A DNA stretch of 64,000 nucleotides, taken from Pseudomonadota bacterium. GTDB taxonomy: Bacteria > Pseudomonadota > Alphaproteobacteria > SHVZ01. Each line of letters opens with the position of its first letter. Within the stretch, counting starts at the first letter, position 1. Both the position numbers and the translations under genes were made by a program. The notes under the pieces were generated by a model. The model searched no databases and had not been told where the DNA came from. It was given only the letters and a program-made list of their open reading frames with translations. Positions 10,836 through 57,275 of this stretch are shown here, one piece after another. The stretch covers positions 1-64,000 of the forward strand of contig JACQAG010000026.1 in the NCBI GenBank assembly GCA_016195085.1, written 5' to 3'.

Positions 10836-12432
10836 CTCCCAAGCCAATGAGCGGCGCACCCCGCCGCCGGGGAGGCGGCGAGTGGACCAGGCCGAGCGCA
10901 CCCGGCCGGCGCGCTCGAAGATCCGCACCGTCGACGATCTGGCTCGGATCACCCAGGACGCAAGAGCCGCCGGCCAGAAGGTCGTCCTTGCCCACGGCGT
11001 CTTCGATCTCGTGCATTTGGGCCATGTGCGCCATCTCGAGGCCGCCCGCCGGCACGGCGACCTCCTGATCGTCTCGGTCACCGCCGACGCCTTCGTCAAC
11101 AAGGGGCCCGGACGACCGGCGTTCGCCGATTATCTCCGGGCCGAGGTGCTGGCCGCCCTCGAATATGTGGACTGGGTCTGCGTCAGCAACTCGACCGATG
11201 CGATCGAGGTGATCACCCGCATCAAGCCCGACTTCTATGCCAAAGGCTCGGACTATGCCGAACCCGCCGCCGACTTGACCGGCAAGATCACCGAGGAGCG
11301 GCAGGCGGTGGAGGCCCATGGCGGCCGGCTGGTGCTGACCGACGAGGTGACCTCAAGCTCGACCAAGCTCATCAACCGCTACCTCAATATCCTCGATCCG
11401 GCGTTGAGGGAATATCTCGAGCGGCTGCGCAGCGAGGTCAGCTTCGAGCAGATCCAGGAGCTTGTCGACGGCGTGCGCGACTATCGCGTGCTCATGGTCG
11501 GCGACGCCATCGTTGATGAGTATCAATACGTGGCGCCGATGGGCAAGGCGGCCAAGGAAAACATGATCGCGACCCTGTTCAAGGATCGCGAGCTCTTTGC
11601 CGGCGGCGTCATCGCTGCCGCCAACCACGTTTCCAACTTCTGCGCAGAGGTTGACGTCATCACCTGTGTCGGCAGCGAGGATAGCCAGGAGGAGCTGCTG
11701 TTCCGGGCCCGCAACGAGAACGTCAACCTGCGCCTCATCGAGCGGCCTGGAGCGCCCACCACGCGCAAGTGCCGGTTCGTGGATCCGGCCTATATGCGCA
11801 AGCTGTTCGAGGTCTACACGATGGAGGACACGCCGCTCGACCGCGAGCGGGAGCAAGAGCTGCAGAGCATGCTCAAGGAAAGTATCGCCGGCTATGACCT
11901 GGTGATCGTCACCGATTTCGGCCACGGCTTTATCGGTCCGTCCACGGTCAAGCTCCTCACCGAGACGGCGCCCTTCCTTGCCATCAACGCGCAATCGAAC
12001 AGCGCCAATATGGGCTTCAACCTCATCACCAAATATCCGCGCGCCGACTATCTCTGCATCGACGCGCCGGAGGCGCGATTGGCGACCGGCGACAAGTTCG
12101 CCGAAATCGAGGAGATTGCCACCAAGCGGCTGCCGGCCCTGATCGATTGCCAGCGCCTGATCCTGACCCATGGCGGGCTTGGCTGCTACACCTATGCGCG
12201 CAAGGAAGGGATGAACCGCATTCCGGCGATGACGCGCACGGTGGTCGACACCGTCGGCGCCGGCGATGCCTTCCTCGCCATCACTTCGCCTTTGGTCAAG
12301 GCCGGCGGCAACATGAAGGTCATCGGCTTCATCGGCAACGTGGTGGGCGCGCTCAAGGTCGGCATCGTCGGCCACCGCTCCTCGGTCGACAAGGCCTCGG
12401 TCTTGAAGTCGGTGAAGGCGCTCCTGCAATGA
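10825..12432 (+). CDS. Bifunctional nucleotidyltransferase-PfkB sugar kinase (HldE/RfaE-like, reversed domain order)
   Basis: In this 535-residue protein, residues ~50-185 form a cytidylyltransferase-type domain with HGVFDLVHLGH (57-67) and a TSSSTKLI segment. Residues ~205-530 form a PfkB ribokinase-like domain with FAGGVIAAANHV and the catalytic DTVGAGDAF (475-483). HldE carries both activities to make ADP-heptose, but with the kinase first; here the transferase is first. The first 45 residues are basic and probably disordered. It overlaps the epimerase by 11 bases and the isomerase by four, which points to a tightly coupled operon. It probably makes an NDP-heptose or a similar sugar. No dedicated GmhB phosphatase is adjacent. 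Confidence 0.87.
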   Translation: MAANSQANERRTPPPGRRRVDQAERTRPARSKIRTVDDLARITQDARAAGQKVVLAHGVFDLVHLGHVRHLEAARRHGDLLIVSVTADAFVNKGPGRPAFADYLRAEVLAALEYVDWVCVSNSTDAIEVITRIKPDFYAKGSDYAEPAADLTGKITEERQAVEAHGGRLVLTDEVTSSSTKLINRYLNILDPALREYLERLRSEVSFEQIQELVDGVRDYRVLMVGDAIVDEYQYVAPMGKAAKENMIATLFKDRELFAGGVIAAANHVSNFCAEVDVITCVGSEDSQEELLFRARNENVNLRLIERPGAPTTRKCRFVDPAYMRKLFEVYTMEDTPLDREREQELQSMLKESIAGYDLVIVTDFGHGFIGPSTVKLLTETAPFLAINAQSNSANMGFNLITKYPRADYLCIDAPEARLATGDKFAEIEEIATKRLPALIDCQRLILTHGGLGCYTYARKEGMNRIPAMTRTVVDTVGAGDAFLAITSPLVKAGGNMKVIGFIGNVVGALKVGIVGHRSSVDKASVLKSVKALLQ

Positions 12433-13055
12433 AGCCGGCCAAGAAGCCGCCGGCCCCGGGCGACCCCGGCACCGCCGATCGGTTGCGCCGTTACCTGGCG
12501 GTCTTGACCGGGGTCTTGGCCGAGGCGGAAGCGACCGCCGCTGACGGCAGTCCCATTTCCATGGGGGCGGCAACGGACTGGACCATCGCCACCGCGCGCG
12601 CCGCCCATGCCGCCGGCAACAAACTCATGTTCATCGGCAATGGCGGCTCGGCGGCGATCGCCAGCCACATGGCGAACGACTTCTCCAAGAATGGCGGCAT
12701 GCGCTCTCTTGCCTTCAATGACGGAGCGTTCCTCACCTGCCTCGGCAACGACTACGGCTATGAGCACGTCTTTGCCAAGCAGGTGGAGTTCCATGCCCGC
12801 GCCGGCGATCTCCTGGTGGCGATCAGCGCCTCGGGGCGCTCGCCCAACATCTTGAACGGCGTTCGGGCGGCCGCTGCGGCGGGCTGCAAAGTGCTCACCT
12901 TGAGCGGATTCGGTGCGGACAACCCATTGCGCCGCATGGGCGAGGTCAACGTCTATCTGCCCTCGAAGGAATATGGCTTCGTCGAATCGGGGCATCTGAC
13001 CCTGCTCGGCGGGATCCTCGATCTCGCCATGGGCTGGGGTGCTTCGAGGCAATGA
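12429..13055 (+). CDS. SIS-domain phosphosugar isomerase, GmhA-like
   Basis: The 208-residue protein has the SIS fold with LMFIGNGGSAAIASHMANDF (residues ~65-84), LVAISASGRSPNIL and a C-terminal VESGHLTLLGGIL. This is the layout of sedoheptulose-7-phosphate isomerase GmhA. The ATG at 12429 overlaps the preceding stop in an ATGA. The preceding fusion enzyme would act on the product of this isomerase, so a heptose-phosphate route is the simplest reading. An alternative is another ketose-aldose isomerase for a non-heptose sugar. Confidence 0.85.
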   Translation: MKPAKKPPAPGDPGTADRLRRYLAVLTGVLAEAEATAADGSPISMGAATDWTIATARAAHAAGNKLMFIGNGGSAAIASHMANDFSKNGGMRSLAFNDGAFLTCLGNDYGYEHVFAKQVEFHARAGDLLVAISASGRSPNILNGVRAAAAAGCKVLTLSGFGADNPLRRMGEVNVYLPSKEYGFVESGHLTLLGGILDLAMGWGASRQ

Positions 13056-13335: not shown

Positions 13336-14637
13336 ATGAAACGTCAACATCGAATCATCGCGCTCGCGCTGCCGAGGGAACCCGAGCCGTCGAGCGCCGT
13401 CGTGCGGCAGCTTGCCGAATTCGTTCAGGCCTATGCGCGGACACAGTTGGTGTGTCTCTTGGACCTTGGCGGCGCCAGCGGCGTCTACCGAACGGCGCTC
13501 GGCGCCGAGCGCTGCATCTACGTCGATTGCAACTCCAGCTACCTGCAGCAGCATTGTCGCTGGGAGATTGTCGATCCCGGCCTGCTTTCCGGCGCCATTC
13601 GTTTCGTCGTGGTCCTGGCACCGCCGGCGACTTATCTGGCGGCGCTGCGCACGGTCTATGACCGCTTCCCGGGACGGCCCATCGTCATACTTCCCTTTGC
13701 CGGTCCCGGGCATGCGCCCGGCATGCTCCCTCCAGTCGCCACCGCACCGCTTGGAGATGATTCTCCCATCGTCTTTAGCCTCTATCCCGGTTGTGGCAGC
13801 AACCGGCTGCGCCCGGTCGTTCGCGGGCTGATGTTCTGGCTTGAGAAGCGTTTTGTTGCGGCGGTCGCACCCAATACGAATCGGCGGTTCCTCGCTTCGA
13901 TCGAAGCCCCCGCCCTGGGCTTCGGCGACTATCCAAAGCTCAGATGCGCGTTGGACGACGCCTGTCGCCGCTCCTTCGATCTATTGGACCTGGATTGCTG
14001 GAGCGAAGTCCACGACCATGTGTCGACCGACATGCTGGCCCAACTGGCGGGCTGCAAGGTGGTGGCGCTCTACCGCGATCCCAGGGACTACATCGTCTCG
14101 CTCTACCACTGGCTCTGCGACCGCATCCATCGCGATCGCTTCGAGACGTTGGCCAAGCTTGCGAAGGAAGACGGGCTGCTGACGCTGATCGACGGTTTGG
14201 CCAGCCGAACTGCGGCGGGGGATTCAGTATACCAGGTGCCGCCGTTGGCGAGTGTCGCTCGCGATTTTGCCGCGCTGCGGCGGCACCCGCATATTTTGGC
14301 CGTGAGCTACGAGGAGGCACGGCTCGATCCCCGCCCTCTGTATCGCCGCATGATCGCCTGGCTTGGGCTCGACGACGTGGCGTTCCATGACATTCCCGAC
14401 GAGGGACTCGACCACATGATCTCGCTCGGGGGGTTTGCCGCACAGTCCGGCGGCGTCTACACCGAAGGAACGGGGGACACCTATCACCGGTCCGCAACCT
14501 TGGGCGTAACTGGCCTGCGCAAGGGCATCGTCGGCGACTGGAAAAACCACTTCTCGCCGAAGCTCAAGGATCATGCCAAGGAGCTGATCGGAGAGTCGCT
14601 GATAGAGCTCGGCTACGAGAAGGATCTCAACTGGTAG
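13336..14637 (+). CDS. Sulfotransferase-fold protein with an extra N-terminal domain (paralog 1)
   Basis: The 433-residue protein has a C-terminal sulfotransferase fold. PGCGSNRLRP (151-160) sits where the 5'-phosphosulfate-binding loop (PxSGTxxL) belongs. VALYRDPRDYIVSLYHW (from residue 243) is the 3'-phosphate-binding motif, and the tail GLRKGIVGDWKNHF is typical of the family. Residues 1-140 are an added domain I do not recognise. The start MKRQHRII was chosen because the paralog at 29141-30454 aligns from the same residue. Family members transfer a group from a 3'-phosphonucleotide donor, normally PAPS. Because the window encodes a pathway to 3'-phospho-cytidine-diphosphoramidate, a PAPS look-alike, this could be a phosphoramidate transferase; sulfation is the default alternative. 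Confidence 0.8.
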   Translation: MKRQHRIIALALPREPEPSSAVVRQLAEFVQAYARTQLVCLLDLGGASGVYRTALGAERCIYVDCNSSYLQQHCRWEIVDPGLLSGAIRFVVVLAPPATYLAALRTVYDRFPGRPIVILPFAGPGHAPGMLPPVATAPLGDDSPIVFSLYPGCGSNRLRPVVRGLMFWLEKRFVAAVAPNTNRRFLASIEAPALGFGDYPKLRCALDDACRRSFDLLDLDCWSEVHDHVSTDMLAQLAGCKVVALYRDPRDYIVSLYHWLCDRIHRDRFETLAKLAKEDGLLTLIDGLASRTAAGDSVYQVPPLASVARDFAALRRHPHILAVSYEEARLDPRPLYRRMIAWLGLDDVAFHDIPDEGLDHMISLGGFAAQSGGVYTEGTGDTYHRSATLGVTGLRKGIVGDWKNHFSPKLKDHAKELIGESLIELGYEKDLNW

Positions 14638-14801: not shown

Positions 14802-15608
14802 TCAGCCCGTTCCGTTCCTTGCTGCCCACGCGCGGGTGAGATACGGCGTAGCGATTTCCGGCACGTTCGCAAGTCGTTCGTCGAGCCAAGCAAGAAATCG
14901 AGCAAATCGTTCCGGACCAAGCTGCACGCGGATATCGTTCACCGAACGCCAAACGCCGATATAGGCCTCGCGGGAGCGGATCTCGACATGCCGCCCTTCG
15001 AGATAGACCACCGTGCTGAATCCGCCCTCCGTTCTGAGCCGATCGCCGAGCTGTTCGGTAACTCCAGAGCGGCCGGAGGAGATCCGCTCTATCTCCGGCC
15101 CAAGCCGGCCCAACTCCGCCTCGATTTCCGTCAGCAGCGGCGACTCCTCGATTTGCCGAGGGTTCCACAACGCGCAGCACCAACCGCCGGTCCTCAATAC
15201 ACGACGGAATTCGGCGGTCCCGCGGGCAAAATCCACCCAATGGAACGACGAGGCCATGGTCAGGAGATCGGCGCTGGCGTCTGCCAGGCCCGTGGCTTCA
15301 CCGCTGCCCTCGCGCCATGCAATCGACCGTGCCGCCGCCGTTCCAGCCGAACTGGCAGTGCCGGCGGCACGCATGGCGGCATTGGGTTCCACCGCAATGA
15401 TCGATCGAAAACCGGCCGCGGCCAGCATCCGCGTCCAAATGCCGGTGCCGGCACCGACGTCGACCGCATCGAGGCCGGTTGGCGGTGCCCCCAGGAGACC
15501 GATCAGCGCCGCGCGCACGTTCGCGTCATAGCCCGGACGATAGAGAGCATAGTCCGTCGCGAGTTCGGTGAAGTCGCCGTGCGTAACCGGTGGTTCCTTA
15601 ACCGTCAT
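14802..15608 (-). CDS. Class I SAM-dependent methyltransferase
   Basis: This ~268-residue protein has SAM motif I VDVGAGTGIWTRML (near residue 50), an acidic AVEPNAAMR loop and SSFHWVDFARGTAEFRRVLRTGG, the Methyltransf_11 layout. The ATG at 15608 is used; another ATG lies two codons upstream. The N-terminus (GDFTELATDYALYRPGY) has the same spacing as the truncated methyltransferase at 21066 (WDDTELTRHYASRPDY), so the two may be related. It is convergent with the sulfotransferase-fold gene and about 5 kb from the phosphoramidate cassette. It could be an O-methyltransferase for that modification, but this is speculative. Confidence 0.8.
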   Translation of the reverse strand: MTVKEPPVTHGDFTELATDYALYRPGYDANVRAALIGLLGAPPTGLDAVDVGAGTGIWTRMLAAAGFRSIIAVEPNAAMRAAGTASSAGTAAARSIAWREGSGEATGLADASADLLTMASSFHWVDFARGTAEFRRVLRTGGWCCALWNPRQIEESPLLTEIEAELGRLGPEIERISSGRSGVTEQLGDRLRTEGGFSTVVYLEGRHVEIRSREAYIGVWRSVNDIRVQLGPERFARFLAWLDERLANVPEIATPYLTRAWAARNGTG

Positions 15609-15909
15609 GGGCAAGCGGCCTTGCTGTGGCAGGGACCCTCGGGGAGACCGGGTTGCTCGGCTCGGACCGGCAAGCTCCCATGGAACACCGATACTTCCGC
15701 ATGCGACCCGGAAGGTGATGCCTCGACAATTCTAACACTCCGGTTGGGGTCGATACACTGTAGACTATGACGTCGATTGCCTTCGTTGCGCACCGTCTCT
15801 GTGTTAAAATTCAGCAGTCGATCCGAATCATCCGTTGGCGGTGGCGGCTTCGGATCGGCGTCCATTCGCGGCGGTTGCATTGAGGCGGGACAAATCCGAG
15901 TGGGGCGGC
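15609..15909. other. Divergent intergenic region between a methyltransferase and an epimerase
   Basis: Roughly 300 bp without a supported gene. An AT-richer patch near 15800-15820 (GTGTTAAAATTCAG) could contain a -10 element for the epimerase, but no well-spaced -35 is visible. An in-frame TTG at 15835 could extend the epimerase, but the added residues resemble nothing in the family. Confidence 0.4.
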
Positions 15910-18269: not shown

Positions 18270-19976
18270 TTGATCTCGATATCGGACAATGCCGTCGCAT
18301 CGAGTTCGGCCGACCGGTCCACGGCCGTTGCCGACGATCTGTTGCGCCGGGGAGAGCGACAAAAGGCGTTCCTCGCCTACCGTGACGTTCTGGCGGTGCA
18401 TCCGGACCATCCCCAGGCGCTGCTGGGAACGGCGCTGATCCTCAGCCTCTCCGGAAATCATCGGCAATCCTACAGGTTTACCCGCGCGGCCTTGGCCTCG
18501 GCGCCCGACATGCCAGGTGCCTGGCATCTGCTTTCGACGCTCGGGGTGGCGATGATTGACCCGCGTGCCGTTGCGCAGGCGGCTTGGCGCGCGGTAGCGA
18601 TCGATTCAAATTTCGCCGCTGGCCATATCAACCTGGGAAAGGCGCTGATCGCGCTCTACGAGACCAACCCCGACCTGCCGGGCGTCTTTGCTTTGCACGA
18701 GAAGGGCTTGGCCGCCTTGGACCGCGCGCTTCGGCTCGACCCGGATTGTCTCGGCTATTCCTATATGGCCGCGTTGCACGCGGCGGCAGGGAATCCCGAG
18801 ACCACACGGACGCTCTATGATGAGCACTTTCGGCGGACCGGTCTCCTCACCGAAACCGTGGTGCCCGGTGGTTTTCGCATCATCCCCCGGGAAGTAACCC
18901 GCGCCATCGGCAACCTCGCACTCATCGATTTCTACATCAAGATGCTTCTGCTCGGCTGGCGGCCGCCGCACACCGTAAAGGCGATCGCACCGCCGGGGAA
19001 GGTCGCCAACATGCATTACCTTCGTTGCTGGCGACGCTACCTGATCGTGATCGACGACCCCAAGGAAATCGCCGAAGTCGAGCCGCATTATCGCCGTGGC
19101 GATTGTGGCATAGGCGGTTTGGTCGTGCAGGGGAGGACGCGGCTGTTTCCCGAGGCTGCGGCAGCGGCGCAGGTCCAATGGGAGGCGGAGCGGCGTCCGC
19201 CGCTGCTCGATCTCGATGAGGAGGACGCGGTTCGTGGCGAGGCGGTGCTGCGGGAGATGGGTCTTGGCGCGAACGACTGGTTTGTCGGCCTGCATGTGCG
19301 CGAATCGGGCTTTCATCGCGATATCGGGCGCAATAGCCCGATGGTGTATCGCAATGCTTCCATCGATCGGTTCGGCCCCGCCATCGAGGCGATCGCAAAG
19401 CGCGGCGGCTGGGTGATCCGGATGGGCGATCCCAGCATGACGCCGCTCGGATCGCACGAGCGAGTGATCGACTACGCGGTCGGTCCCCGCAAGAGCGAAT
19501 GGATGGATGTGTTCCTATGCGCCCGCGGCCGCTTCTTCCTTGGGAGTGCCTCTGGCATGCACATGGTCCCGGCCACCTTCGGCGTGCCATGCGCCATCGC
19601 CAATGCGGCTCCCATGGGCTCGAGACCCGTTTTCGCGGCCGACATTTTCATTCCAAAACTGTATTGGTCAAAGCTCGAAGGTCGCTATCTCGGCTTCGTG
19701 GAGAGCACGGCGCCGCCGCTCGGGCATGCGGCTCATGCCGGATTGTTCGAAACGCGCGGGGTGGAGCTCGTGGAGAACACGCCGGAAGAAATCGAGGGTT
19801 TGGTTGCCGAGATGCTGGATCGCTTGGACGGGAGCGCCGGCTACAGTGCAGAGGATGAAATGCTGCAGGCGCGGTTCCGCGCGGAAACCGCCCCCTTTAG
19901 CGCCTGGGGCACCAACAGCCGGATCGGCCGGGATTTTCTGCGGTTTCATGCCGCGCTGCTGGAATCCCGACAATAG
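18270..19976 (+). CDS. TPR-containing TIGR04372-type glycosyltransferase
   Basis: The 568-residue protein has an N-terminal TPR region (DDLLRRGERQKAFLAYRDVL near residue 23) and a C-terminal TIGR04372 domain from ~220. Signatures are WFVGLHVRESGFH, RGGWVIRMGDPSMTPL, FFLGSASGMHMVPATFGVPC and GTNSRIGRDFLRFH. It is closest to the protein at 30720-32450, sharing ADIF(I/V)PKLYWSK and ESTAPPLGH. The start is a TTG with no strong ribosome binding site, so the N-terminus is uncertain by some tens of residues. It follows the FkbM gene by 43 bp. Confidence 0.83.
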   Translation: MISISDNAVASSSADRSTAVADDLLRRGERQKAFLAYRDVLAVHPDHPQALLGTALILSLSGNHRQSYRFTRAALASAPDMPGAWHLLSTLGVAMIDPRAVAQAAWRAVAIDSNFAAGHINLGKALIALYETNPDLPGVFALHEKGLAALDRALRLDPDCLGYSYMAALHAAAGNPETTRTLYDEHFRRTGLLTETVVPGGFRIIPREVTRAIGNLALIDFYIKMLLLGWRPPHTVKAIAPPGKVANMHYLRCWRRYLIVIDDPKEIAEVEPHYRRGDCGIGGLVVQGRTRLFPEAAAAAQVQWEAERRPPLLDLDEEDAVRGEAVLREMGLGANDWFVGLHVRESGFHRDIGRNSPMVYRNASIDRFGPAIEAIAKRGGWVIRMGDPSMTPLGSHERVIDYAVGPRKSEWMDVFLCARGRFFLGSASGMHMVPATFGVPCAIANAAPMGSRPVFAADIFIPKLYWSKLEGRYLGFVESTAPPLGHAAHAGLFETRGVELVENTPEEIEGLVAEMLDRLDGSAGYSAEDEMLQARFRAETAPFSAWGTNSRIGRDFLRFHAALLESRQ

Positions 19977-20526: not shown

Positions 20527-21069
20527 ATGGAAGAGAGTCGCAATGCGGCTGGGATGGTCTTCTGGATTACCGGCCTTTCCGGCGTCGGCAAGACCACCGT
20601 GGCGGCACGCCTCGTCGCTCGGTTGACGCCCATGGGGGTAAAGCCATTGCTGCTCGATGGCGACGTGCTGCGGGAGATCTTCGGCGGCGGCATCGGTCAC
20701 GGCGCCGAAGAGCGCCGTCGACTCGCCTTCTGCTATGGACGCCTCTGCCGGGAGCTGGCGCGCCAAGGCGCCACGGTGGTCTGCGCCACGATCTCCATGT
20801 TCGAGGCCGTGCGCGCATGGAACCGCACGAATATTCCCCGCTATACGGAAATCTACCTGCGCGCGAGCCTGGCCGAGCTGGCGGCTCAGGATGAAAAGGG
20901 TTTGTACCGACGCGCGCTTGCCGGCGAGCTTCGCGACGTGGTCGGCGTCGACATCGAGGCAGAAGAGCCTCGGGCCGCTGATTTCGTGTTCGACCGATCC
21001 GAAGGGCTGGCGCCCGATGAGATCGCCCGCCGCATTTTGGAGCAGACGGATATCCCGGTGACGGCATGA
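20527..21069 (+). CDS. APS-kinase-like kinase, probable cytidine diphosphoramidate kinase (Cj1415-like)
   Basis: The protein of 180 residues has a P-loop GLSGVGKTT (16-24) and LLLDGDVLREIF, the LDGDxxR site of adenylylsulfate (APS) kinases. ATISMFEAVRAWNR and YTEIYLRASLAEL are the usual later motifs. Taken alone this would be CysC, which phosphorylates APS. Its neighbours match the C. jejuni enzymes for cytidine diphosphoramidate, where the CysC homolog Cj1415 phosphorylates the 3'-OH of CDP-phosphoramidate. No ATP sulfurylase is present here. ATG 20527 is used; GTG 20515 is an alternative. Its stop overlaps the ATG at 21066. Confidence 0.82.
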   Translation: MEESRNAAGMVFWITGLSGVGKTTVAARLVARLTPMGVKPLLLDGDVLREIFGGGIGHGAEERRRLAFCYGRLCRELARQGATVVCATISMFEAVRAWNRTNIPRYTEIYLRASLAELAAQDEKGLYRRALAGELRDVVGVDIEAEEPRAADFVFDRSEGLAPDEIARRILEQTDIPVTA

Positions 21070-21245
21070 AGACCGACTGGGACGACACGGAGCTCACCCG
21101 GCACTATGCCAGCCGGCCTGACTATGCGCCGGGAGCGGTCGACACGCTCCTTGGCCGTTCCGGGATCGAGGCGTGGCGATCCCACGCAATTCTGGCGCGC
21201 CAGGCAACTGTCACACGAGGACGGATTGCGCCGCGTCGCCGCTAG
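21066..21245 (+). pseudogene. Truncated SAM-methyltransferase (N-terminus only)
   Basis: An ATG at 21066, overlapping the kinase stop by four bases, opens a 59-residue frame starting KTDWDDTELTRHYASRPDYA and then PGAVDTLLGRSG. That is the typical N-terminus of small class I methyltransferases found in glycan and O-methyl phosphoramidate loci. The SAM-binding core never follows: after about 35 residues the sequence loses similarity and stops at 21245, inside the next gene. The coupled start shows a full gene once stood here and that an internal deletion joined its 5' end to the glutamine-kinase gene. In C. jejuni, methyltransferases Cj1419 and Cj1420 sit beside the corresponding genes. Confidence 0.68.
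21217..21228 (+). promoter_or_regulatory. Ribosome binding site and TTG start of the glutamine-kinase-like gene
   Basis: GAGG at 21217-21220 is followed after five bases by TTG at 21226-21228. In-frame positions upstream are only open because they read through the methyltransferase remnant in another frame, and they encode nothing family-like. This site therefore decides the start of the 782-residue protein. Confidence 0.65.
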
Positions 21246-23574
21246 GCACAATCCGCAAGTTCGTCTCGGCACCAAGGCTGAGACCTTGGAGCGGCTTGCG
21301 CCGGTGGTCCGCTCCGCCCGAGTCTTGCCGCTCCGCCGGTTCACCGTCGCCGAATGGCAGGAGGATGCCGCCGTCGTGCTGGCGGCGCTCGCCTCCGAAC
21401 CCTGGGGCAAGGGGCGGCGCATCGTGCGCAGCAGCGCCCGAGCGGAGGACACGACCCTGTCCTCGGAAGCCGGTCGCTATCTTTCGGTTGACGACGTCGC
21501 CGACGAGGCCGGGCTCGCCGATGCGATCCGACGCGTGATCGCCTCCTATGGCGAGGCGCAGCCGGAAGACCAGGTCCTGGTGCAGCCCATGCTCGCCGGC
21601 GTCGGCGTGAGCGGCGTCGCCTTCAGCCGCGATCCCAACACCGGCAGCCCATATTTCGTCATCAATTATGACGATCGCGGCGACACCACGGCGGTAACCG
21701 GCGGTCGGGCGGACCGGCTGCAAACCTTCGTCTACTGGAAGCATGGCGGGGGTCGATGCCCGCCGGCCTTGGACGCGATCGTGGCCTTGCTGAGGGAGCT
21801 CGAAGGTCTGCTCGGCTCGGACTCCCTCGATGTCGAGTTCGCCTTCGACGAAGCCGGTCTCGTGCTGCTGCAGGCGCGTCCGCTGGTGGCGGGTCAACGG
21901 CCGGCGATCAAGCTCGAGACCCAGAAGCGCGCCGTTCGCGCCATCGCCGAGCGTGTGGAGATGGGCATCCGCCCGCACCCCTATCTCTCCGGCGAGCGCA
22001 GCCTTTACGGCGTGATGCCGGATTGGAATCCGGCGGAGATCATCGGCTTGCGGCCGCGGCCGCTGGCGCTCTCGCTCTACCGCGACCTGGTGACCGACTC
22101 GATCTGGGCCTATCAGCGCGACAACTATGGCTATCGCAACCTCCGCAGCTTCCCCTTGATGGTGCATTTCGAGGGGCTTCCCTACATCGATGTCCGTGTC
22201 AGCATGAACTCCTTCGTGCCGCGGGATCTCGACGAGGAGATCGCCGGCCGGCTGGTGAACTACTATTTGGACCGCCTTGCCAACGCGCCGGCGCTGCACG
22301 ACAAGGTCGAGTTCGAGATCGTCTTCTCCTGCTACACCTTCGATCTTCCGAGCCGTCTCGAGCAGCTTCGAGACCATGGCTTTTCCGCCGACGACCGCAC
22401 GGCCATTGCCGACAGCCTCAAGCGTCTGACCGAGCGGATCATCCATCGCGACAAGGGGCTGTGGGTGCAGGACAGCCGTAAGGTGCGCGTGCTCGAGGAG
22501 CGCCGACGGCGCATCCTGGAGGCCGATCTCGACACGGTCTCGCGCATTTATTGGCTGCTCGAGGACTGCAAGCGCTACGGCACCTTGCCCTTCGCCGGGT
22601 TGGCGCGGGCGGGCTTCATCGCGGTCCAGCTCCTGAATTCCCTGGTTGCCGTGGGCCAGCTGAGCCAGGCTGATCATGGCCGCTTCATGCTAGGCCTCAA
22701 GACCGTCGGCAGCCGCATGGCTGCGGATTTCCGTCGCCTGGATCGGGCGGTCTTTCTCGCTGAATACGGCCATCTCCGTCCGGGAACCTACGACATCCTT
22801 TCGCCTCGCTACGATGAAGCGCCCGAAATCTATTTCGACTGGTCTGCGCCGCGTCCGGCCACGCCTGAGGGCAGGGAACGCTTTGCCCTTTCCTTGCAGC
22901 AGATGCGGGGTATCGAGCGCTTCATCGCCGAGCTCGGCATCGATGCCAGCGTCATCGGCCTCTTCGATTTCCTGGAGACCGCGATCGAGGAGCGCGAATA
23001 TGCCAAGTTTGTCTTTTCGCGCAGCCTCAGCGACGCGCTCGTCCTGATGCGCCGGCTTGGCGAGGCTCATGGCTATTCGGCCGACGAGATGTCCTATGCG
23101 AACATCGGCGTTCTGCACGAGCTGATGGCCTCCAGCGCCGACACGGCCGAGCTGCTCGGCGCATCGATCGAGCGCGGGCGTGAGCGCTATGCGATGACAC
23201 GGAGCCTGTGGCTGCCGCCGCTGATCGCCGGGCCCGACGACGTCTATGCCTTCCATCTGCCGGCGACGCAACCGAACTTCATCGGCCAGAAAACGGTGCA
23301 AGCACCGGTCAAGGGTTGTGGCGACCCGGAGGCGATGCGCGGCGCCATCGTCGCCATCCCGAGTGCCGATCCAGGCTATGACTGGATCTTCACCCGAGGC
23401 ATCGCCGGTTTCGTCACCGCTTATGGCGGCGTCAACTCGCACATGGCGATCCGCGCCAACGAGCTGGGCTTGCCGGCGGTCATCGGCGCCGGCGAGGCCT
23501 TGTTCCAGCGCTGGTCGGCGGCGCGGGTGCTTCTGATCGACTGCGCCAATCAGCGGGTCGAGGTGCTGGGCTGA
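21226..23574 (+). CDS. PEP-synthase-like dikinase-fold enzyme, probable L-glutamine kinase (Cj1418-like)
   Basis: The 782-residue protein begins with an ATP-grasp PPDK_N-type domain (LGTKAETLERL near residue 16, IVRSSARAEDTTLSSEAG, LEVEFAF-type ligands). It ends with a swivelling phosphohistidine domain: YGGVNSHMAIRANELGLPA, His739 being the expected phosphorylated residue. There is no C-terminal PEP-binding barrel, so it is not PEP synthase or PPDK, in which the histidine lies mid-protein. This architecture matches Cj1418, which uses ATP to phosphorylate the amide nitrogen of L-glutamine, giving AMP and phosphate. Rifampin phosphotransferase has a similar layout but makes no sense with these neighbours. 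The hydrolase starts 8 bp after its stop. Confidence 0.85.
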   Translation: MRRVAARHNPQVRLGTKAETLERLAPVVRSARVLPLRRFTVAEWQEDAAVVLAALASEPWGKGRRIVRSSARAEDTTLSSEAGRYLSVDDVADEAGLADAIRRVIASYGEAQPEDQVLVQPMLAGVGVSGVAFSRDPNTGSPYFVINYDDRGDTTAVTGGRADRLQTFVYWKHGGGRCPPALDAIVALLRELEGLLGSDSLDVEFAFDEAGLVLLQARPLVAGQRPAIKLETQKRAVRAIAERVEMGIRPHPYLSGERSLYGVMPDWNPAEIIGLRPRPLALSLYRDLVTDSIWAYQRDNYGYRNLRSFPLMVHFEGLPYIDVRVSMNSFVPRDLDEEIAGRLVNYYLDRLANAPALHDKVEFEIVFSCYTFDLPSRLEQLRDHGFSADDRTAIADSLKRLTERIIHRDKGLWVQDSRKVRVLEERRRRILEADLDTVSRIYWLLEDCKRYGTLPFAGLARAGFIAVQLLNSLVAVGQLSQADHGRFMLGLKTVGSRMAADFRRLDRAVFLAEYGHLRPGTYDILSPRYDEAPEIYFDWSAPRPATPEGRERFALSLQQMRGIERFIAELGIDASVIGLFDFLETAIEEREYAKFVFSRSLSDALVLMRRLGEAHGYSADEMSYANIGVLHELMASSADTAELLGASIERGRERYAMTRSLWLPPLIAGPDDVYAFHLPATQPNFIGQKTVQAPVKGCGDPEAMRGAIVAIPSADPGYDWIFTRGIAGFVTAYGGVNSHMAIRANELGLPAVIGAGEALFQRWSAARVLLIDCANQRVEVLG

Positions 23575-23581
23575 GCGGCCT

Positions 23582-24187
23582 ATGCGCCCGGTCGCGATAA
23601 GCCAACGGGTCGACATCGTTCCGCGCCGAGGCGAGCGCCGCGACGCGTTGGATCAGCGGTGGGTCCGCCTGCTCGCGGCCTGCGGCTTGCTGGCCGTGCC
23701 GATGCCCAACGAGCCCGATCTGGCGGCAGAGCTGTTCCAAGACATGGAGGCGGCGGGGCTCGTGCTGACGGGTGGCAATGATCTCGTGCGCTATGGCGGC
23801 GACGCCCCCGAGCGCGACCGGACCGAGCAGCTGTTGCTCCGACTTGCCCGCAAACGAGCGCTGCCGATACTGGGCGTCTGTCGCGGCATGCAGGTGATCC
23901 AAGATTGTTTCGGCGTGACGCTCAAACCTGTCTCTGGGCATGTCGCGACGCGGCATGCAGTCGACGGGGCTGGGCTCAGTGGCGTCGTCAACAGCTACCA
24001 CGGCTACGGAGCCAGCGAGACCTCAGCGGAGCTCGGAATCTTGGCCCGTGCCGCCGATGGGGTGGTCGAAGCGATCGGCCACCGGGCCGAGCCGATTCTG
24101 GCTCAGATGTGGCACCCAGAACGGGAGACACCGTTCGATCCCGCAGATCTCGCGCGCATCCGCGGGCATTTTGGCATTGCGCCGTGA
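23582..24187 (+). CDS. Class I glutamine amidotransferase-fold hydrolase, probable gamma-glutamyl-CDP-amidate hydrolase (Cj1417-like)
   Basis: In this 201-residue protein the nucleophile elbow is GVCRGMQ with Cys100; His178 and Glu180 in MWHPE complete the triad. LTGGNDLVRYGG is typical of the peptidase C26 (gamma-glutamyl-GABA hydrolase) branch. In the C. jejuni pathway Cj1417 of this family removes glutamate from gamma-glutamyl-CDP-amidate to release cytidine diphosphoramidate. There is no synthetase domain nearby that would need ammonia channelling. It overlaps the next gene by GTGA and follows the kinase by 7 bases, so the three are coupled. Confidence 0.85.
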   Translation: MRPVAISQRVDIVPRRGERRDALDQRWVRLLAACGLLAVPMPNEPDLAAELFQDMEAAGLVLTGGNDLVRYGGDAPERDRTEQLLLRLARKRALPILGVCRGMQVIQDCFGVTLKPVSGHVATRHAVDGAGLSGVVNSYHGYGASETSAELGILARAADGVVEAIGHRAEPILAQMWHPERETPFDPADLARIRGHFGIAP

Positions 24188-24927
24188 GGGCGGTCATCCT
24201 CGCCGCAGGGCGCGGCAGCCGAATGGGAAACTTGACCGCCGATCGGCCGAAATGCCTGGTCGAGCTCGGTGGGCGGCCACTCATCGAGTGGCAGCTGGAC
24301 GCGCTGAGGAAGGCGGGCGTCGACGAGGTGGCGATCGTGCGCGGTTATCGGGGGGAGCGATTGGCGCCCTATGGCATGCATCATTTCGACAACCCACGCT
24401 GGGCCGAGACGAACATGGTCGTCTCGCTGACGGCTGCCGAGGCGTGGCTGTCGAAAAGCGCATGCATTGTGAGCTATGCCGACATCGTTTACGGCGCCAG
24501 TACGGTGAGGGCGATCTCTGACATGTCCACGGCGCCAATCGCCATCAGCTATGATCCGGATTGGCTCTGGCTGTGGCGCCAGCGCTTCCCCGATCCCTTG
24601 AGCGACGCTGAGAGCTTCCGCATAGCGGAAGGCTGGGTGACGGATATTGGCAGACGGGTTCAGCGGCTGGATGAGATCGAAGGCCAATATATGGGGCTGC
24701 TGCGCTTCGAGCCCGCGGGTTGGCGCGCCGTGCGTGAGCATCTCGCACGACAATCGGCCGAGGCAGTCAATCGCCTTGATATGACCTCTCTGCTTCGAGC
24801 GCTCATCGAGGCGGGCGTGACCATCCGCGCCATTGCGACACCAAGCCGATGGGGCGAGGTGGACAGCGTTGGGGACCTCGAGCTCTACGAGAGATTGCTC
24901 GCGACCGGTGCCTGGAGGCCGGAGTAG
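24184..24927 (+). CDS. NTP transferase, probable CTP:phosphoglutamine cytidylyltransferase (Cj1416-like)
   Basis: The 247-residue protein begins at a GTG overlapping the hydrolase stop. RAVILAAGRGSRMGNLT and DRPKCLVELGGRPLIEWQ form the nucleotide-binding signature of LicC/GlmU-type pyrophosphorylases. IVSYADIVYG supplies the metal-binding Asp, and WGEVDSVGDLELYE the C-terminal acidic site. LicC-like enzymes make CDP-choline; Cj1416 of the same family couples CTP to L-glutamine phosphate. With the glutamine-kinase-like and hydrolase genes directly upstream the latter is favoured. No choline kinase or LicD-type transferase is adjacent, which argues against phosphocholine. Confidence 0.85.
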   Translation: MRAVILAAGRGSRMGNLTADRPKCLVELGGRPLIEWQLDALRKAGVDEVAIVRGYRGERLAPYGMHHFDNPRWAETNMVVSLTAAEAWLSKSACIVSYADIVYGASTVRAISDMSTAPIAISYDPDWLWLWRQRFPDPLSDAESFRIAEGWVTDIGRRVQRLDEIEGQYMGLLRFEPAGWRAVREHLARQSAEAVNRLDMTSLLRALIEAGVTIRAIATPSRWGEVDSVGDLELYERLLATGAWRPE

Positions 24928-27275: not shown

Positions 27276-28982
27276 GTGAGCGCTGCTGCGGATCCAGATC
27301 GTCTTGGCGCCGCGTTCGCACTGCATCGCGATGGTCGCTTGCAGGAGGCCGCCGAGCAGTATCGGGCGATCCTGGAGGCGGATCCAAATCGCGTCGACGC
27401 GCTACATCTCTACGGTGTTCTGTGCTTGCAAGGCGACAACGCCACGGAGGCAAAGAGGCTGGTCGAATTGGCAATATCCCGGCAGCCGCTGATGGCGGAG
27501 CTGCACAAGACGATGAGTGCCGTCGCCGAGGCGCTCGGCGACCGCGAGACGATGGTCGCCAGTCTCCACCGCTGCCTCACTCTCAATCCGGCAGCTGCGG
27601 AGGCATTTGTCACGCTGGCCAGGAACCATGAGCGACTGAGTCGGATGGGTGACGATTCAGAGTGGAACGCCGTTGCGCTCGCTCACGGTCTTGTTTGCTA
27701 TGATCGGGCCTTCGCCATCAGGCCGGACTCGATCAACCTGTGCGAGGTCGCAGGGTTCCACATCGAGTACGGGAATCGACGGCGCAGCCACAGACACTAC
27801 GATCTGTGGCATCAGCGGCGACGGCCCTCGCGAGACGTTGTTGAAGCATGCGGCTTCCAAGTGGTTCCCGAGGAGGTCGTGCGCGCCATTGGGCATATGG
27901 TCTGGCTCGACGGCTACCTGAAGATGATTCATCTCGGCTTTCGTCAGCGCCACGATCTCGTCGTCCTCGCTCCAGCTGCGAAGATCGCCAACGAGCATTA
28001 TCTCGACTACTGGCGCAACCATGTCGTCGTCGTGACGGATTCAGGCGACATCAAACGGCTCAAGCGCTTCAGAGACCACTCGGAGTACGGGTTTGGCAGC
28101 ATCTTCTCTGAAGGGCGTACCCAAGGGCTTACCGAGGCGGTGGCTCGTGCCCAACGCGCCTGGGAGGAGCAAGGTCGCGCGCCGCTCTTAAGCGTGCGCG
28201 AAGAAGATCGGCGGCGCGGCTGGGAAGCGCTGACGCGGCTCGGTATGCCGCCTGAGGCGTGGTTTGCCACAGTGCATATGCGCGAACCTGGCTTTGACCG
28301 GAATCGGCAGGCGATCGATCCTACGGTCGAGCGCATCTACGTCGACCAGCAGCATCGCAACGTCCACGTCGAAGCCTTCCTGCCGGCGATCCGGCTCATC
28401 GTCAGCCGCGGCGGATGGGTCGTTCGTCTGGGTGACGCGAGCATGACACCCTTGCCGCCGATGACCAACGTCATCGACTACGCGCTGAGCCCCGAGAAGA
28501 GCCCCTGGATGGACGTGTTTCTGCTCGGCAGCGCCCATTTCTATCTCGGGACCTCCTCGGGTCTTTGGTGCGTGCCGATTACCTTCGGCGTCCCGGCGGC
28601 GATCACGAACGTCGCGCCGCTCGCGACCAGGCCCTTGTCGACGAAGGATCTGTTCATGCCGAAGCTCGCCCGCGGCAAGCGCGAAGGGCGTCTGCTGAGC
28701 TTCGCGGAGTGCATGAACGAGCCGGTGGGCTATGCCTCGCACGCGGGCGTTCTGCTGCGCCACGGCCTCACCCTTATCGACAACACGGCCGAGGAAATCG
28801 AGGAGCTGACGGCGGAGATGCTCGACCGCTTGGACGGCACCGCCCGCTCCTCGGAAGAAGACGAGGCATTGCAGGCGCGGCACCTCGATTTGTCGCTGAC
28901 GCGAAGCAATTGGGGCACCAACAGCCGCATCGGTCGAGACTTCCTTAGGCGGCATGCCAATCTGCTGGAAGCGTCGCCCTAG
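27276..28982 (+). CDS. TPR-containing TIGR04372-type glycosyltransferase
   Basis: The 568-residue protein starts at GTG 27276 with GGAGG 7 bases upstream. TPR repeats occupy residues ~10-150 (ALHRDGRLQEAAEQYRAIL). The TIGR04372 domain shows WFATVHMREPGFD, RGGWVVRLGDASMTPL, FYLGTSSGLWCVPITFGVP and GTNSRIGRDFLRRH. The usual HVRE is HMRE here. It is the most divergent of the five copies, so it may use a different donor or acceptor. It follows the FkbM-like methyltransferase and is followed by palindromic repeats. Confidence 0.85.
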   Translation: MSAAADPDRLGAAFALHRDGRLQEAAEQYRAILEADPNRVDALHLYGVLCLQGDNATEAKRLVELAISRQPLMAELHKTMSAVAEALGDRETMVASLHRCLTLNPAAAEAFVTLARNHERLSRMGDDSEWNAVALAHGLVCYDRAFAIRPDSINLCEVAGFHIEYGNRRRSHRHYDLWHQRRRPSRDVVEACGFQVVPEEVVRAIGHMVWLDGYLKMIHLGFRQRHDLVVLAPAAKIANEHYLDYWRNHVVVVTDSGDIKRLKRFRDHSEYGFGSIFSEGRTQGLTEAVARAQRAWEEQGRAPLLSVREEDRRRGWEALTRLGMPPEAWFATVHMREPGFDRNRQAIDPTVERIYVDQQHRNVHVEAFLPAIRLIVSRGGWVVRLGDASMTPLPPMTNVIDYALSPEKSPWMDVFLLGSAHFYLGTSSGLWCVPITFGVPAAITNVAPLATRPLSTKDLFMPKLARGKREGRLLSFAECMNEPVGYASHAGVLLRHGLTLIDNTAEEIEELTAEMLDRLDGTARSSEEDEALQARHLDLSLTRSNWGTNSRIGRDFLRRHANLLEASP

Positions 28983-29140: not shown

Positions 29141-30454
29141 CTACCAGCTCAGATCCTTTTCATAGCCGAGCTCGATCAGCGCCTCGCCGACGAGCTCCTT
29201 GGCCCGGTCCTTCACCTTCGGGGTAAAATGGTTCTTCCAATCGCCGACGACGCCCTTGCGCAGCCCGGTCACGCCTAAGGTTGTGGAGCGATGGTAGGTG
29301 TCGCCCTTACCTTCAAGGTAGGTGCCGCCGGATTGCGCCGAAAATCCCCCGAAAGAAATTAAATGGTCGAGCACCTCATCGGAGATGCCCTTGAACACCA
29401 CGTCGTCGAGTCCGAGCCAGGCGATCATGCGGCGATAGAGGGGGCGAGGATCGAGACGAGCCTCCTCGTAGCTGACTCCGAGGATATGCGGGTGCTTGCG
29501 CAGCCCGGCGAAGTCGCGCGCCGTGGTCGCCAGCGGCGGCACTTGATAGACGCTGTCGCCCGCAGCGGTTCGACTGGCCAGGCCCTCGAACAGCGTCAGC
29601 AGACCCTCCTCCTTCGGGAGCGTGGCGAGCGCGGTGAAACGATCGCCATGGATCCCATCGCAGAGCCAATGGTAGAGCGACACGATGTAGTCCCTGGGAT
29701 CTCGGTACAGCGCAACGACCTTGCAATGCGTCAGCTGCGCCAGCATGTCGGTCGAGACGTGGTCGTGGACGTCGCAATAGCGATCGAAGTCCAATAGATC
29801 GAAGGAGCGGCGATAGGCGTCGTCCAGCGCGCTTCTGAGTTTTGGATAGTCGCCAAAACCCAAGCTGGGTGCCTCGATCGAGCTTAGGAATCGCCGGTGC
29901 GAATTTGGCGCTACCGCCTGGACGAACGGCTTCTCCAGCCATCCCAATAGCGCCCGCACCACCGGGCGCAGCCGGTTGGAGCCGCAACTGGGAGGGAGGC
30001 TGAAGACTATGGGAGAATCGTCCCCGAGAGGCACGGTCCCCATTGGCGGTGGCGCGCCGGGCGGCTGATCGCTCTCGGCGTAAGGCAGAACCACGGGAGG
30101 CCTTCCGGGGAACCGCTCATACACGGTGCGCAGAGCTCCCAGATAGCAATCCGGCGTCGCTACTACCACCACAAGGCGGATGGCGCCGGAAAGCCGACCA
30201 TGGTCGATGATTTCCAAACGGCAGTGCTGCTGCAGATAGCTTGGGCTGCAGTCGTAGTAGATGCAACGTTCGACGCCGAGGGCGGCCTCGATCGCCTGCC
30301 GGAGCGCCGCACCGCTGCCCGCGAGATCCAAGAGACAGACAATCCCCTGGCCGGCATGGATCCGCAGGAACTTGACCAGCTGTTCAGCAACGACGCTCGT
30401 CTGGTCCGGCGCCAGCGCCAGCGAGAGGGGGATGATCCGGTGTTGTCGCTTCAC
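29141..30454 (-). CDS. Sulfotransferase-fold protein with an extra N-terminal domain (paralog 2)
   Basis: This 437-residue protein is a close paralog of 13336-14637 along its whole length, including PSCGSNRLRP in the 5' loop, VALYRDPRDYIVSLYHW as the 3'-phosphate site, and GLRKGVVGDWKNHF. The GTG start at 30454 gives the N-terminus (V)KRQHRII that aligns with MKRQHRII in the paralog; the open frame upstream of it does not align. The N-terminal halves differ more than the C-terminal halves, which suggests a shared donor and different acceptors. It diverges from the TIGR04372 gene at 30720 across a region containing the 75-bp repeat. Confidence 0.8.
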   Translation of the reverse strand: MKRQHRIIPLSLALAPDQTSVVAEQLVKFLRIHAGQGIVCLLDLAGSGAALRQAIEAALGVERCIYYDCSPSYLQQHCRLEIIDHGRLSGAIRLVVVVATPDCYLGALRTVYERFPGRPPVVLPYAESDQPPGAPPPMGTVPLGDDSPIVFSLPPSCGSNRLRPVVRALLGWLEKPFVQAVAPNSHRRFLSSIEAPSLGFGDYPKLRSALDDAYRRSFDLLDFDRYCDVHDHVSTDMLAQLTHCKVVALYRDPRDYIVSLYHWLCDGIHGDRFTALATLPKEEGLLTLFEGLASRTAAGDSVYQVPPLATTARDFAGLRKHPHILGVSYEEARLDPRPLYRRMIAWLGLDDVVFKGISDEVLDHLISFGGFSAQSGGTYLEGKGDTYHRSTTLGVTGLRKGVVGDWKNHFTPKVKDRAKELVGEALIELGYEKDLSW

Positions 30455-30634: not shown

Positions 30635-30719
30635 ACTCCGACGCCGATAGGGCGCCGGCAGAAGAGCGCCTCGGCAAGATTGGTCGTACGAGATGCTCGA
30701 TCGGCTCGAAAGGCAGTCT

Positions 30720-32450
30720 ATGACGAGCACGACTGACCCTAAGCCGCCATCCCAGGCACCGGAGATGGATCCGGCCGGCCGCCTTGCAACGCTGCTGCGC
30801 GCCGCGGACGAGCTCGCGCATCGAAACGAGCTGCAGGCAGCGCTTCAACGCTATGGCAGCGTTCTTGCGGCCGTGCCGGCCCATCCGCACGCCTTGCTAG
30901 GGGCGGCGTTCGTCCTCTACAGCAGCGAAAACCTCACGCTCGCATCGAAATATCTGCGCCGCGCCTTGGCGGCGGCACCGGCAGTCGCTGGGGCATGGAC
31001 GCTGATGGCGAGCCTTCGCCGCAAGTGGGCCGAGACCGCGGGAGCGGCGATTGCGGCTTGGCGTGCCGTCGCTCTCGATCCCGGCTCGGTCCCGCGCCTG
31101 GCTGCGCTCGGCGAGGCGCTCATCGGCGCCTATGAGGCCGACCCCAAGGCGGCCGGCGGCTTCGCGCTCTATGAGAAGGCCCTGGCCTTCCTCGACCGTG
31201 CGAACGCCCTCGATCCCAATGCGGTGAACCAAGTGCTCATGGCTGGATACCATGTCGCCATCGGCGATCTCGATGGCGCCTTGTCCTATTACGACGCGTA
31301 TTGCCGCAAGAGCGGCTTGCTCGATGACCGCGGCGGACCCGAAGCCTATCGCCTGGTACCGCGTGCCACCGCCCAGGCGATCGGCCATACGGCGGCCCTC
31401 GATGTCTATGTGAAGATGCGAACCCTGGGCTGGCGCCCGCCCCATGAGATGAAGCTCGTGGCTGCCCAGGGATACGTCGCCAACCGGCATTATGTCGACT
31501 ATTGGCGACCGTATGTCACCATCGTCGACGATCCCGCGGAGATCGCTCTGTTGGAAGCCTCGCGGCAACCCAGCGATTGCGCGATCGGCGGCTTGGTGGT
31601 GCGCGGAAAGACCGGCCTGCTATCGAAGATGGCCGCCGCCGCTCATGCGCAGTGGGAGCGCGAAGGACGGCCGCCCTTGCTCCAGGTGAGCGAGGAGGAC
31701 CGCAAGCGCGGCCGCTCGGTTCTTCGCGCCTGGGGCATGGGCGATGAGGATTGGTTCGTCGGGTTGCACGTGCGCGAATCCGGTTTCCATGAAAGCGGCG
31801 GTCGTGCCGATCCCCACATCCACCGCAATGCCTCGATCGCCTCGTTCGACGCGGCGATCGACAACATCCTCGCGCGCGGCGGCTGGATCATCCGCCTGGG
31901 CGATCCCAGCATGACGCCGATAAGGCCGCGCGACCGGGTGATCGACTATGCCTTGGGCTCCAAGAAGAGCGAATGGATGGACGTGTTTCTGTGCGGGAGC
32001 TGCCGCTTTTTCCTCGGCGGTGCCTCCGGCTTGCAGCTCGTGCCCTATACCTTCGGCGTGCCCTGCGCGGTGGCGAACGCCTCGCCCATGGGCCAGCGGC
32101 CAGTCGCCAGCGCCGACATCTTCGTTCCGAAGCTCTATTGGTCCAAGCGCGAGACGCGCCAGCTGACCTTTGCCGAGAGCACCGCCCCACCCCTCGGCCA
32201 TACCTCCCAAGTCGGCGTGTTCGAGGCGCGGGGCATCGAGCTCATCGAGAATACGCCGGAGGACATCGCCGCGCTTGTCGAGGAGATGCTGGACCGCCTC
32301 GAGGGCACGTTGGCCTACACGGAGGAGGACGAGCGTCTACAAGCGCAATTCCGCACCGAAACCGGCCCCCACAGCGCCTGGGGCACGAATAGCCGCATTG
32401 GCCGGAGTTTCCTGCGTCGGCACGCGAACCTACTGAAAGTTCACACCTAG
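30720..32450 (+). CDS. TPR-containing TIGR04372-type glycosyltransferase
   Basis: The 576-residue protein starts at the ATG at 30720 (AAAGG about 7 bases before); an ATG 9 codons upstream is possible. TPR units occupy ~20-130 (ADELAHRNELQAALQRYGSV). The C-terminal domain shows WFVGLHVRESGFH, RGGWIIRLGDPSMTPI, FFLGGASGLQLVPYTFGVPC and GTNSRIGRSFLRRH. It is the close relative of 18270-19976; the pair probably arose by duplication. It follows repeat copy A and ends at another short repeat. Confidence 0.85.
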   Translation: MTSTTDPKPPSQAPEMDPAGRLATLLRAADELAHRNELQAALQRYGSVLAAVPAHPHALLGAAFVLYSSENLTLASKYLRRALAAAPAVAGAWTLMASLRRKWAETAGAAIAAWRAVALDPGSVPRLAALGEALIGAYEADPKAAGGFALYEKALAFLDRANALDPNAVNQVLMAGYHVAIGDLDGALSYYDAYCRKSGLLDDRGGPEAYRLVPRATAQAIGHTAALDVYVKMRTLGWRPPHEMKLVAAQGYVANRHYVDYWRPYVTIVDDPAEIALLEASRQPSDCAIGGLVVRGKTGLLSKMAAAAHAQWEREGRPPLLQVSEEDRKRGRSVLRAWGMGDEDWFVGLHVRESGFHESGGRADPHIHRNASIASFDAAIDNILARGGWIIRLGDPSMTPIRPRDRVIDYALGSKKSEWMDVFLCGSCRFFLGGASGLQLVPYTFGVPCAVANASPMGQRPVASADIFVPKLYWSKRETRQLTFAESTAPPLGHTSQVGVFEARGIELIENTPEDIAALVEEMLDRLEGTLAYTEEDERLQAQFRTETGPHSAWGTNSRIGRSFLRRHANLLKVHT

Positions 32451-37068: not shown

Positions 37069-37115
37069 GGCGGCGAGCGGCGGCGATGCGATGCGGCCGC
37101 CGGAGCGACAGCTAG

Positions 37116-38210: not shown

Positions 38211-38236
38211 AGACAGGAGGGAGGAGAAGCGCAGAA

Positions 38237-38777
38237 ATGTCCAGTGCGGAGCAAGGTGGCTCGCGCGGAATGGCTGAAGGCTCCGCGCCGCTTCCTTACG
38301 GCGCCGACTTCTATCGCTACCTCGATGCCGGGTCGCTTTCCTCGGCACGGCCGATCGTGCCGCTGCTTAAGCGGCATTTGAATCCTCAAAGCGTCCTGGA
38401 TGTGGGCTGCGGACGCGGCGCCTGGCTGTCCGTCTGGCGCCGAACGGGGGTGTCAGATGTCTTCGGCGTCGACGGTGCGCACGTGGATTTGGACGCATTG
38501 CTCGTCCCGCGCCAAACCTTCGCGAGTCATGACCAACACGTTTCTTTTTGCAAGGGACGATGCCGCCGCCGTCCTGCCGCCCGCGGTCGCCGAGACCCTG
38601 ATCCCCCGCGGCGCCAAGGCGCGGGACTATGCCGATTGGCGTTGGCGGCTGCGTTGCCGTTTGCTGGCTCCGCTGCCGCCACGCCTGGTTACGCTGCTCT
38701 CGCGGGCGCATTTTTGGCTAATAATGGGCTTGCCGCTGCGACGGGCGAGTCGCGTGTCTCACCGTATCGGACCGTGA
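38237..38777 (+). pseudogene. Methyltransferase with internal deletion and frame change
   Basis: An ATG at 38237 with GGAGGAGAAG upstream opens a methyltransferase: YGADFYRYLDAGSL, then SVLDVGCGRGAWLSVW and VFGVDGAHVDLDALLVPRQ. At about 38530 this frame loses meaning. In another frame the sequence resumes with NTFLFARDDAAAVLPPAV and a basic C-terminus ending at the TGA at 38775-38777. In intact relatives I know, a stretch of about 100 residues containing the rest of the SAM domain separates the HD and NTFLF-type segments. Both ends are thus present and the middle is missing. The final GTGA overlap with the next gene is preserved. It is unlikely to be active. Confidence 0.66.
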
Positions 38778-57263: not shown

Positions 57264-57275
57264 GAACAGCGAGCC

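Follow-up and report, generated by a model that had tools for sequence, protein, structure and literature searches.

The stretch of DNA analysed here (the window) comprises 64,000 nucleotides of contig JACQAG010000026.1, from the 4.8 Mb genome of an alphaproteobacterium (GenBank assembly GCA_016195085.1). At positions 20527-24927 it carries four intact open reading frames (ORFs), arranged head to tail on the + strand and encoding a CysC-like kinase, a dikinase, a C26-type hydrolase and a nucleotidyltransferase (NTP transferase), with the remnant of a gene for an S-adenosylmethionine (SAM)-dependent methyltransferase between the first two. The features of this cassette are the following.

20527..21069, + strand: CysC-like kinase, predicted cytidine-diphosphoramidate 3'-kinase (Cj1415-like); Pfam APS_kinase 1.7e-30; NF004041.
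21066..21245, + strand, 59 codons: type-B SAM methyltransferase remnant in the canonical cassette position; recognised by three-frame reading, with 36-55% (mostly 45-51%) identity over about 35 residues to intact genes in the same position.
21226..23574 (open frame from ATG 21106), + strand: L-glutamine-kinase-like dikinase; NF004508/PRK05849; ATP-grasp, central and phosphohistidine domains.
23582..24187, + strand: C26-type amidohydrolase, predicted gamma-glutamyl-CDP-amidate hydrolase (Cj1417-like); NF045546 as best model; C100/H178/E180.
24184..24927, + strand: NTP transferase, predicted CTP:phosphoglutamine cytidylyltransferase (Cj1416-like); NTP_transf_3 2.1e-21; GTG start overlapping the C26 stop.

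The Pfam domains found across the cassette, APS_kinase, PPDK_N with PEP-utilizers only, Peptidase_C26/GATase and NTP_transf_3, are those of the four adjacent genes that an earlier note on this DNA had described. The same note had considered the genes to be translationally coupled, which is true of the hydrolase and NTP transferase genes, overlapping by GTGA (24184-24187), but not of the others: the dikinase and hydrolase genes are separated by 7 nt, and the stop codon of the cysC-like gene overlaps (ATGA) the methyltransferase remnant rather than the dikinase gene. Ratios of non-synonymous to synonymous substitution rates (dN/dS; NG86, against family relatives) are roughly 0.13-0.22 for the four genes which, judged by these values, are under purifying selection. 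By analogy with Campylobacter jejuni, we consider it very probable that these genes together supply a surface glycan with an activated phosphoramidate, following the route of that bacterium.

The dikinase scores 961.1 bits against NCBIfam model NF004508 (PRK05849, cut-off 501), versus 43.6 bits for phosphoenolpyruvate (PEP) synthase and 33.1 bits for rifampin phosphotransferase (RIF_Ptrans_rph), a family whose cut-off is 999 bits. At the sequence level it thus groups with neither of the latter two; such a grouping, named in the earlier note as evidence against its reading, did not occur. Three domains are seen in the predicted model (predicted local distance difference test score of 87.5): ATP-grasp, helical central and phosphohistidine. 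A PEP barrel is absent, in agreement with the Pfam domains and with the note. Across 81 homologues the phospho-acceptor H779 (ORF numbering) never varies, nor do more than 100 further positions; DWNPAE and YGHLRPGTYD are examples of conserved stretches in the central domain. The longest ORF spans 21106-23574, from an ATG at 21106; its first 40 residues were ruled out as a genuine domain, since they come from reading the methyltransferase remnant out of frame. The start of the gene is most likely the TTG at 21226, which gives a protein of 782 amino acids, the length of the family.

The best NCBIfam model for the hydrolase is NF045546 (gamma-glutamyl-CDP-amidate hydrolase), with 106.9 bits compared to 46.5 for the next model. 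All 30 C26 homologues examined from other cassettes match NF045546 (best E 6.4e-40), apparently each below its curated equivalog cut-off of 250 bits. The class-I amidotransferase triad C100, H178 and E180, already pointed out in the note, was found as described and is invariant in 77 homologues. The NTP transferase is 67-72% identical to those of family relatives and about 35-62% identical to those of most other cassettes.

The CysC-like kinase reaches 171.5 bits against NF004041, above the cut-off of 127, and 114.4 bits against the apsK model TIGR00455, below the cut-off of 138.7. Its APS_kinase fold and its similarity to solved adenylyl-sulfate (APS) kinases would also be expected of an ordinary APS kinase making 3'-phosphoadenylyl sulfate (PAPS) for neighbouring sulfotransferases, in which case the locus would serve glycan sulfation and the other genes would be unrelated ones that had fallen into it. 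Sulfotransferase-domain genes do lie close by, and ATP sulfurylase is present in almost every tested genome that has sulfotransferases beside the cassette; most of these genomes can probably make APS. However, the protein scores best in a subfamily separate from apsK, and its sequence shows TISMF...WNR at the site of the ISP motif in the two separate CysN-CysC proteins of the same genome. These two proteins carry APS-kinase-type motifs, by which APS kinase is provided elsewhere in the genome. Moreover, six loci (L004, L008, L009, L010, L015 and L018) encode the CysC-like kinase and the dikinase as fusions in single ORFs of 955-1060 codons, which links the kinase with the glutamine-kinase step and argues against an ordinary APS kinase, and no ATP sulfurylase gene was recognised among the cassette neighbours. 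Taken together, we regard a sulfation locus with an ordinary APS kinase as highly improbable. A different fusion occurs in Azospirillum lipoferum, where an 846-amino-acid protein with a C-terminal CysC domain is encoded directly before the methyltransferase, dikinase, C26 and NTP transferase genes; its N-terminal region is sulfotransferase-like by eye, although Pfam does not recognise it.

A short-pattern scan of 84,980 species genomes returned 432 confirmed dikinase relatives, 80 of which were fetched as loci. These span Alpha-, Beta- and Gammaproteobacteria, Acidobacteria, Planctomycetes, Verrucomicrobia, Nitrospira, Nitrospina, Clostridium and others, with genera such as Pseudomonas, Azospirillum, Magnetospirillum, Chitinibacter, Clostridium and Paenibacillus. 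When only the 59 loci that extend at least 4.5 kb to either side of the dikinase gene are counted, CysC, C26 and NTP transferase genes are found near it in 53, and a methyltransferase gene as well in 51. Since the same genes co-occur in dozens of distant genomes, their arrangement at 20527-24927 is not due to chance. Among 398 genomes sampled evenly from the window's phylum, the dikinase was above cut-off in 15 (about 4% of species), compared to none of 14 well-known control genomes. Each of three Azospirillum plasmids also has a close dikinase homologue. No Campylobacter locus was present among the 80 fetched genome matches, nor did tblastn with the dikinase return one from plasmids and phages. 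Reviews had named Campylobacter as the only source in which the modification was identified (PMC6429109, 2019), and had described the kinase as specific to C. jejuni (PMC9561416, 2022). As a system the cassette is of a known kind; it occurs here far from where it had been known and, by this count, is widespread. A 33% identical dikinase was noticed at 676-2994 of a contig labelled 'Bacteriophage sp.' (L097, MT837632.1; unverified, from human faeces), which may be bacterial DNA.

Taylor and Raushel are said to have worked out the chemistry of the C. jejuni pathway between 2017 and 2019. We infer every one of the reactions proposed here from that pathway (PMC6429109, PMC3907429), and the identity of the transferase, the methyl step and a CysQ-type recycling of 3'-phospho-CMP, in the loci having CysQ, are our own additions to it. 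Following the glutamine-kinase step, the NTP transferase would join phosphoglutamine to CTP to give CDP-L-glutamine, from which the C26 enzyme would remove glutamate by hydrolysis to yield cytidine diphosphoramidate. Phosphorylation of the 3'-OH of this compound by the CysC-like kinase would then produce 3'-phospho-CDP-phosphoramidate. O-methylation of the phosphoramidate group is probably carried out by a methyltransferase, here the product of a displaced type-A gene, and a transferase would finally deliver the phosphoramidate to a sugar, a role that in the window most likely falls to one or both of the sulfotransferase-fold proteins flanking the cassette.

The O-methyl phosphoramidate (MeOPN) locus of C. 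jejuni, Cj1415-Cj1422, resembles the cassette in having the same four enzyme families side by side within a surface-glycan island, to which the loci of relatives add SAM methyltransferases. It differs from the window, which lies far outside Campylobacterota, in gene order (here CysC, methyltransferase remnant, dikinase, C26, NTP). The proposal of the earlier note that the same CDP-phosphoramidate pathway exists outside Campylobacterota is supported by the assignment of each protein to the expected family, by the linkage in 53 of the 59 loci and by the CysC-dikinase fusions, and at the family level this reading of the sequences is well supported.

Several observations weigh against it. The link to Cj1415-Cj1418 comes from family models and the published pathway, not from direct alignment, memberships in NF004508 and NF004041 having been established for the window proteins and not for Cj1418 and Cj1415 themselves. 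The hydrolase lies well below the NF045546 cut-off and, since this cut-off is not reached, we describe it as working like Cj1417 instead of filing it as an equivalog. The NTP transferase is without a dedicated family model, so that its assignment comes from fold and linkage, and its best match among solved structures (1jyk, phmmer) is the phosphocholine enzyme LicC, over the N-terminal residues 1-93 only. Among solved structures, the dikinase model comes closest in fold, over its full length, to rifampin phosphotransferase (Z 18.6, root-mean-square deviation 10.7, 572 aligned residues). Three dikinase homologues (L059, L066 and L078) stand alone, with no cassette, and the enzyme may therefore have other uses. 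In the window the methyltransferase of the canonical position is destroyed. Finally, the candidate transferases here are sulfotransferase-domain proteins, Cj1421/Cj1422 of the MeOPN locus lying outside the comparison.

The match to LicC, a CTP:phosphocholine cytidylyltransferase that shares with the NTP transferase the fold and the N-terminal nucleotide-binding motif, raises the question of whether the dikinase and the NTP transferase activate another amine or a choline-like group by LicC-type chemistry, with a product other than a glutamine-derived phosphoramidate. In favour of this, NTP transferase homologues are annotated as belonging to the phosphocholine cytidylyltransferase family. However, LicC has no detectable match to the C-terminal half of the protein, which is a weak test of the alternative, and the best model of the conserved C26 partner is a gamma-glutamyl-CDP-amidate hydrolase, with which a glutamine-derived intermediate is the sole sensible fit. 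LicC-type chemistry seems very unlikely to us. A further difference from LicC is that no choline kinase (LicA-like) gene was recognised beside the NTP transferase gene.

Rifampin phosphotransferase has the ATP-grasp domain, the central substrate domain and the phosphohistidine domain in the same order as the dikinase over the full length; it differs in sequence, with 17-18% identity in addition to the low model score reported above, and in context, the dikinase being part of a conserved cassette with a CTP transferase and an amidohydrolase. The two enzymes have the same layout and belong to different sequence families. Searches of solved structures found no close relative of the dikinase or of the hydrolase. 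Of the stand-alone dikinases, those of Clostridium guangxiense (L066) and C. hydrogenum (L078), both at about 10001-12328, are homologues with 47-49% identity, lack CysC, C26 and NTP genes and have neighbourhoods that are alike; they possibly represent another use of phosphoglutamine.

The methyltransferase remnant reads MKTDWDDTELTRHYASRPDYAPGAVDTLLGRSG followed by IEAWRSHAILARQA, corresponding to the start of a methyltransferase and a piece near its end, with the middle lost and an early stop. Intact methyltransferases occupy this position in the loci of many relatives. A second methyltransferase gene, which was not in the earlier note, is found displaced about 5 kb upstream of the cassette, in inverted orientation:

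14802..15614, - strand: full-length type-A SAM methyltransferase of the cassette family; Methyltransf_11 4.3e-15; 55-61% identical to methyltransferases encoded between CysC and dikinase in L001, L002, L013, L014 and others.

Its product is a candidate phosphoramidate O-methyltransferase. The loss of most of the length of the canonical gene could indicate that the cassette is decaying in this genome, yielding no product or only an unmethylated phosphoramidate, a kind of modification known from the lipopolysaccharides of Xanthomonas campestris and Shewanella (PMC3907429). The intactness and low dN/dS of the four core genes and the full-length methyltransferase of cassette type 5 kb away argue against these possibilities, which we consider unlikely.

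Two sulfotransferase-fold proteins, S1 and S2, whose genes flank the cassette and were also absent from the earlier note, are encoded at:

13336..14637, + strand: S1, candidate phosphoramidate transferase; Sulfotransfer_1 2.6e-14; homologue in L061, E 4e-19.
29141..30451 (start approximate), - strand: S2, 74% identical paralogue of S1; Sulfotransfer_1 7.6e-16; homologue in L061, E 4e-23.

The L061 homologue is a sulfotransferase-like protein of 549 amino acids (8066-9712, Azospirillum isscasi), encoded between CysC and dikinase. To assess neighbour enrichment, 130 genes beside or inserted in the cassette were compared with 113 genes of these loci that lie at a distance of 4-9 kb. Sulfotransfer_3 was found in 20 of the 130 adjacent genes versus at most 2 of the 113 distant ones (p about 1e-4 when this conservative bound is used), Sulfotransfer_1 in 12 and Inositol_P in 10, each again versus at most 2. 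A representative Inositol_P gene, placed between C26 and NTP, scores 227.6 bits against the CysQ model, whose cut-off is 228.8. Enrichment of Glyphos_transf (TagF) beside the cassette was not significant (6/130 versus at most 2/113, p 0.19). A neighbour protein from Pseudomonas (L053, 7448-8617) gave a confident GT-B model whose matches are tied between UDP-GlcNAc 2-epimerases, glycosyltransferases and TagF, and for this reason a TagF-like transferase role there remains a guess.

3'-Phosphorylated nucleotides are handled by sulfotransferases as well as by CysQ. Because the last known nucleotide product of the C. jejuni cassette is 3'-phospho-CDP-phosphoramidate, the simplest reading is that the sulfotransferase-fold enzymes are phosphoramidate transferases and the CysQ-like proteins clear 3'-phospho-CMP. 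The cassette-adjacent sulfotransferase-fold proteins would then use 3'-phospho-CDP-(O-methyl)phosphoramidate as PAPS is used, constituting a second economy of activated groups, derived from the tools of sulfation and present in many phyla. We put this forward tentatively, its chances being a little below even. The link to sulfotransferase-fold proteins and CysQ is the new, testable part of the finding. Sulfation systems based on PAPS likewise bring together a CysC-like 3'-kinase, sulfotransferase-fold proteins and CysQ-like 3'-nucleotidases; they carry sulfate on AMP, whereas the activated group predicted here is phosphoramidate on CDP and, unlike in those systems, six loci have a fusion of CysC with a glutamine-kinase-like dikinase. 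The absence of ATP sulfurylase as a sign that the adjacent sulfotransferases cannot use PAPS was considered and dropped as uninformative, nearly all of 20 genomes having CysD or Sat; ordinary sulfation with PAPS may therefore also take place there.

If the cassette works as predicted, surface glycans with phosphorus-nitrogen (P-N) decorations would be widespread, and harmless culturable hosts, such as Azospirillum lipoferum 4B or Chitinibacter tainanensis, would be available for the unsolved transfer and methylation steps. The reason for the 3'-phosphate of the donor would be explained as well, since sulfotransferase-fold transferases and CysQ recognise 3'-phosphonucleotides. Many database names, such as PEP-utilizing enzyme, adenylyl-sulfate kinase and phosphocholine cytidylyltransferase, would have to be corrected.

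Around the cassette, the + strand encodes three related tetratricopeptide repeat proteins of about 570 amino acids (18270-19976, 27276-28982 and 30693-32450), the first of which has a TIGR04372 glycosyltransferase domain (214.7 bits). An HldE-like bifunctional kinase/nucleotidyltransferase, below the HldE cut-off, is followed by a SIS-domain (phosphoheptose isomerase-like) protein at 10825-13055, a pair that suggests a heptose-type sugar in the island. A CDP-sugar pathway lies beside the cassette at 36337-39679, comprising a glucose-1-phosphate cytidylyltransferase (377.9 bits, exceeding the cut-off), a protein resembling dehydratases and an ORF for a methyltransferase. FliL/FliM-like flagellar genes, recognised by eye, lie at the border of the island (56736-58343), and flagellin-domain proteins are encoded near the cassette in some other loci; the glycan may therefore sit on flagella.

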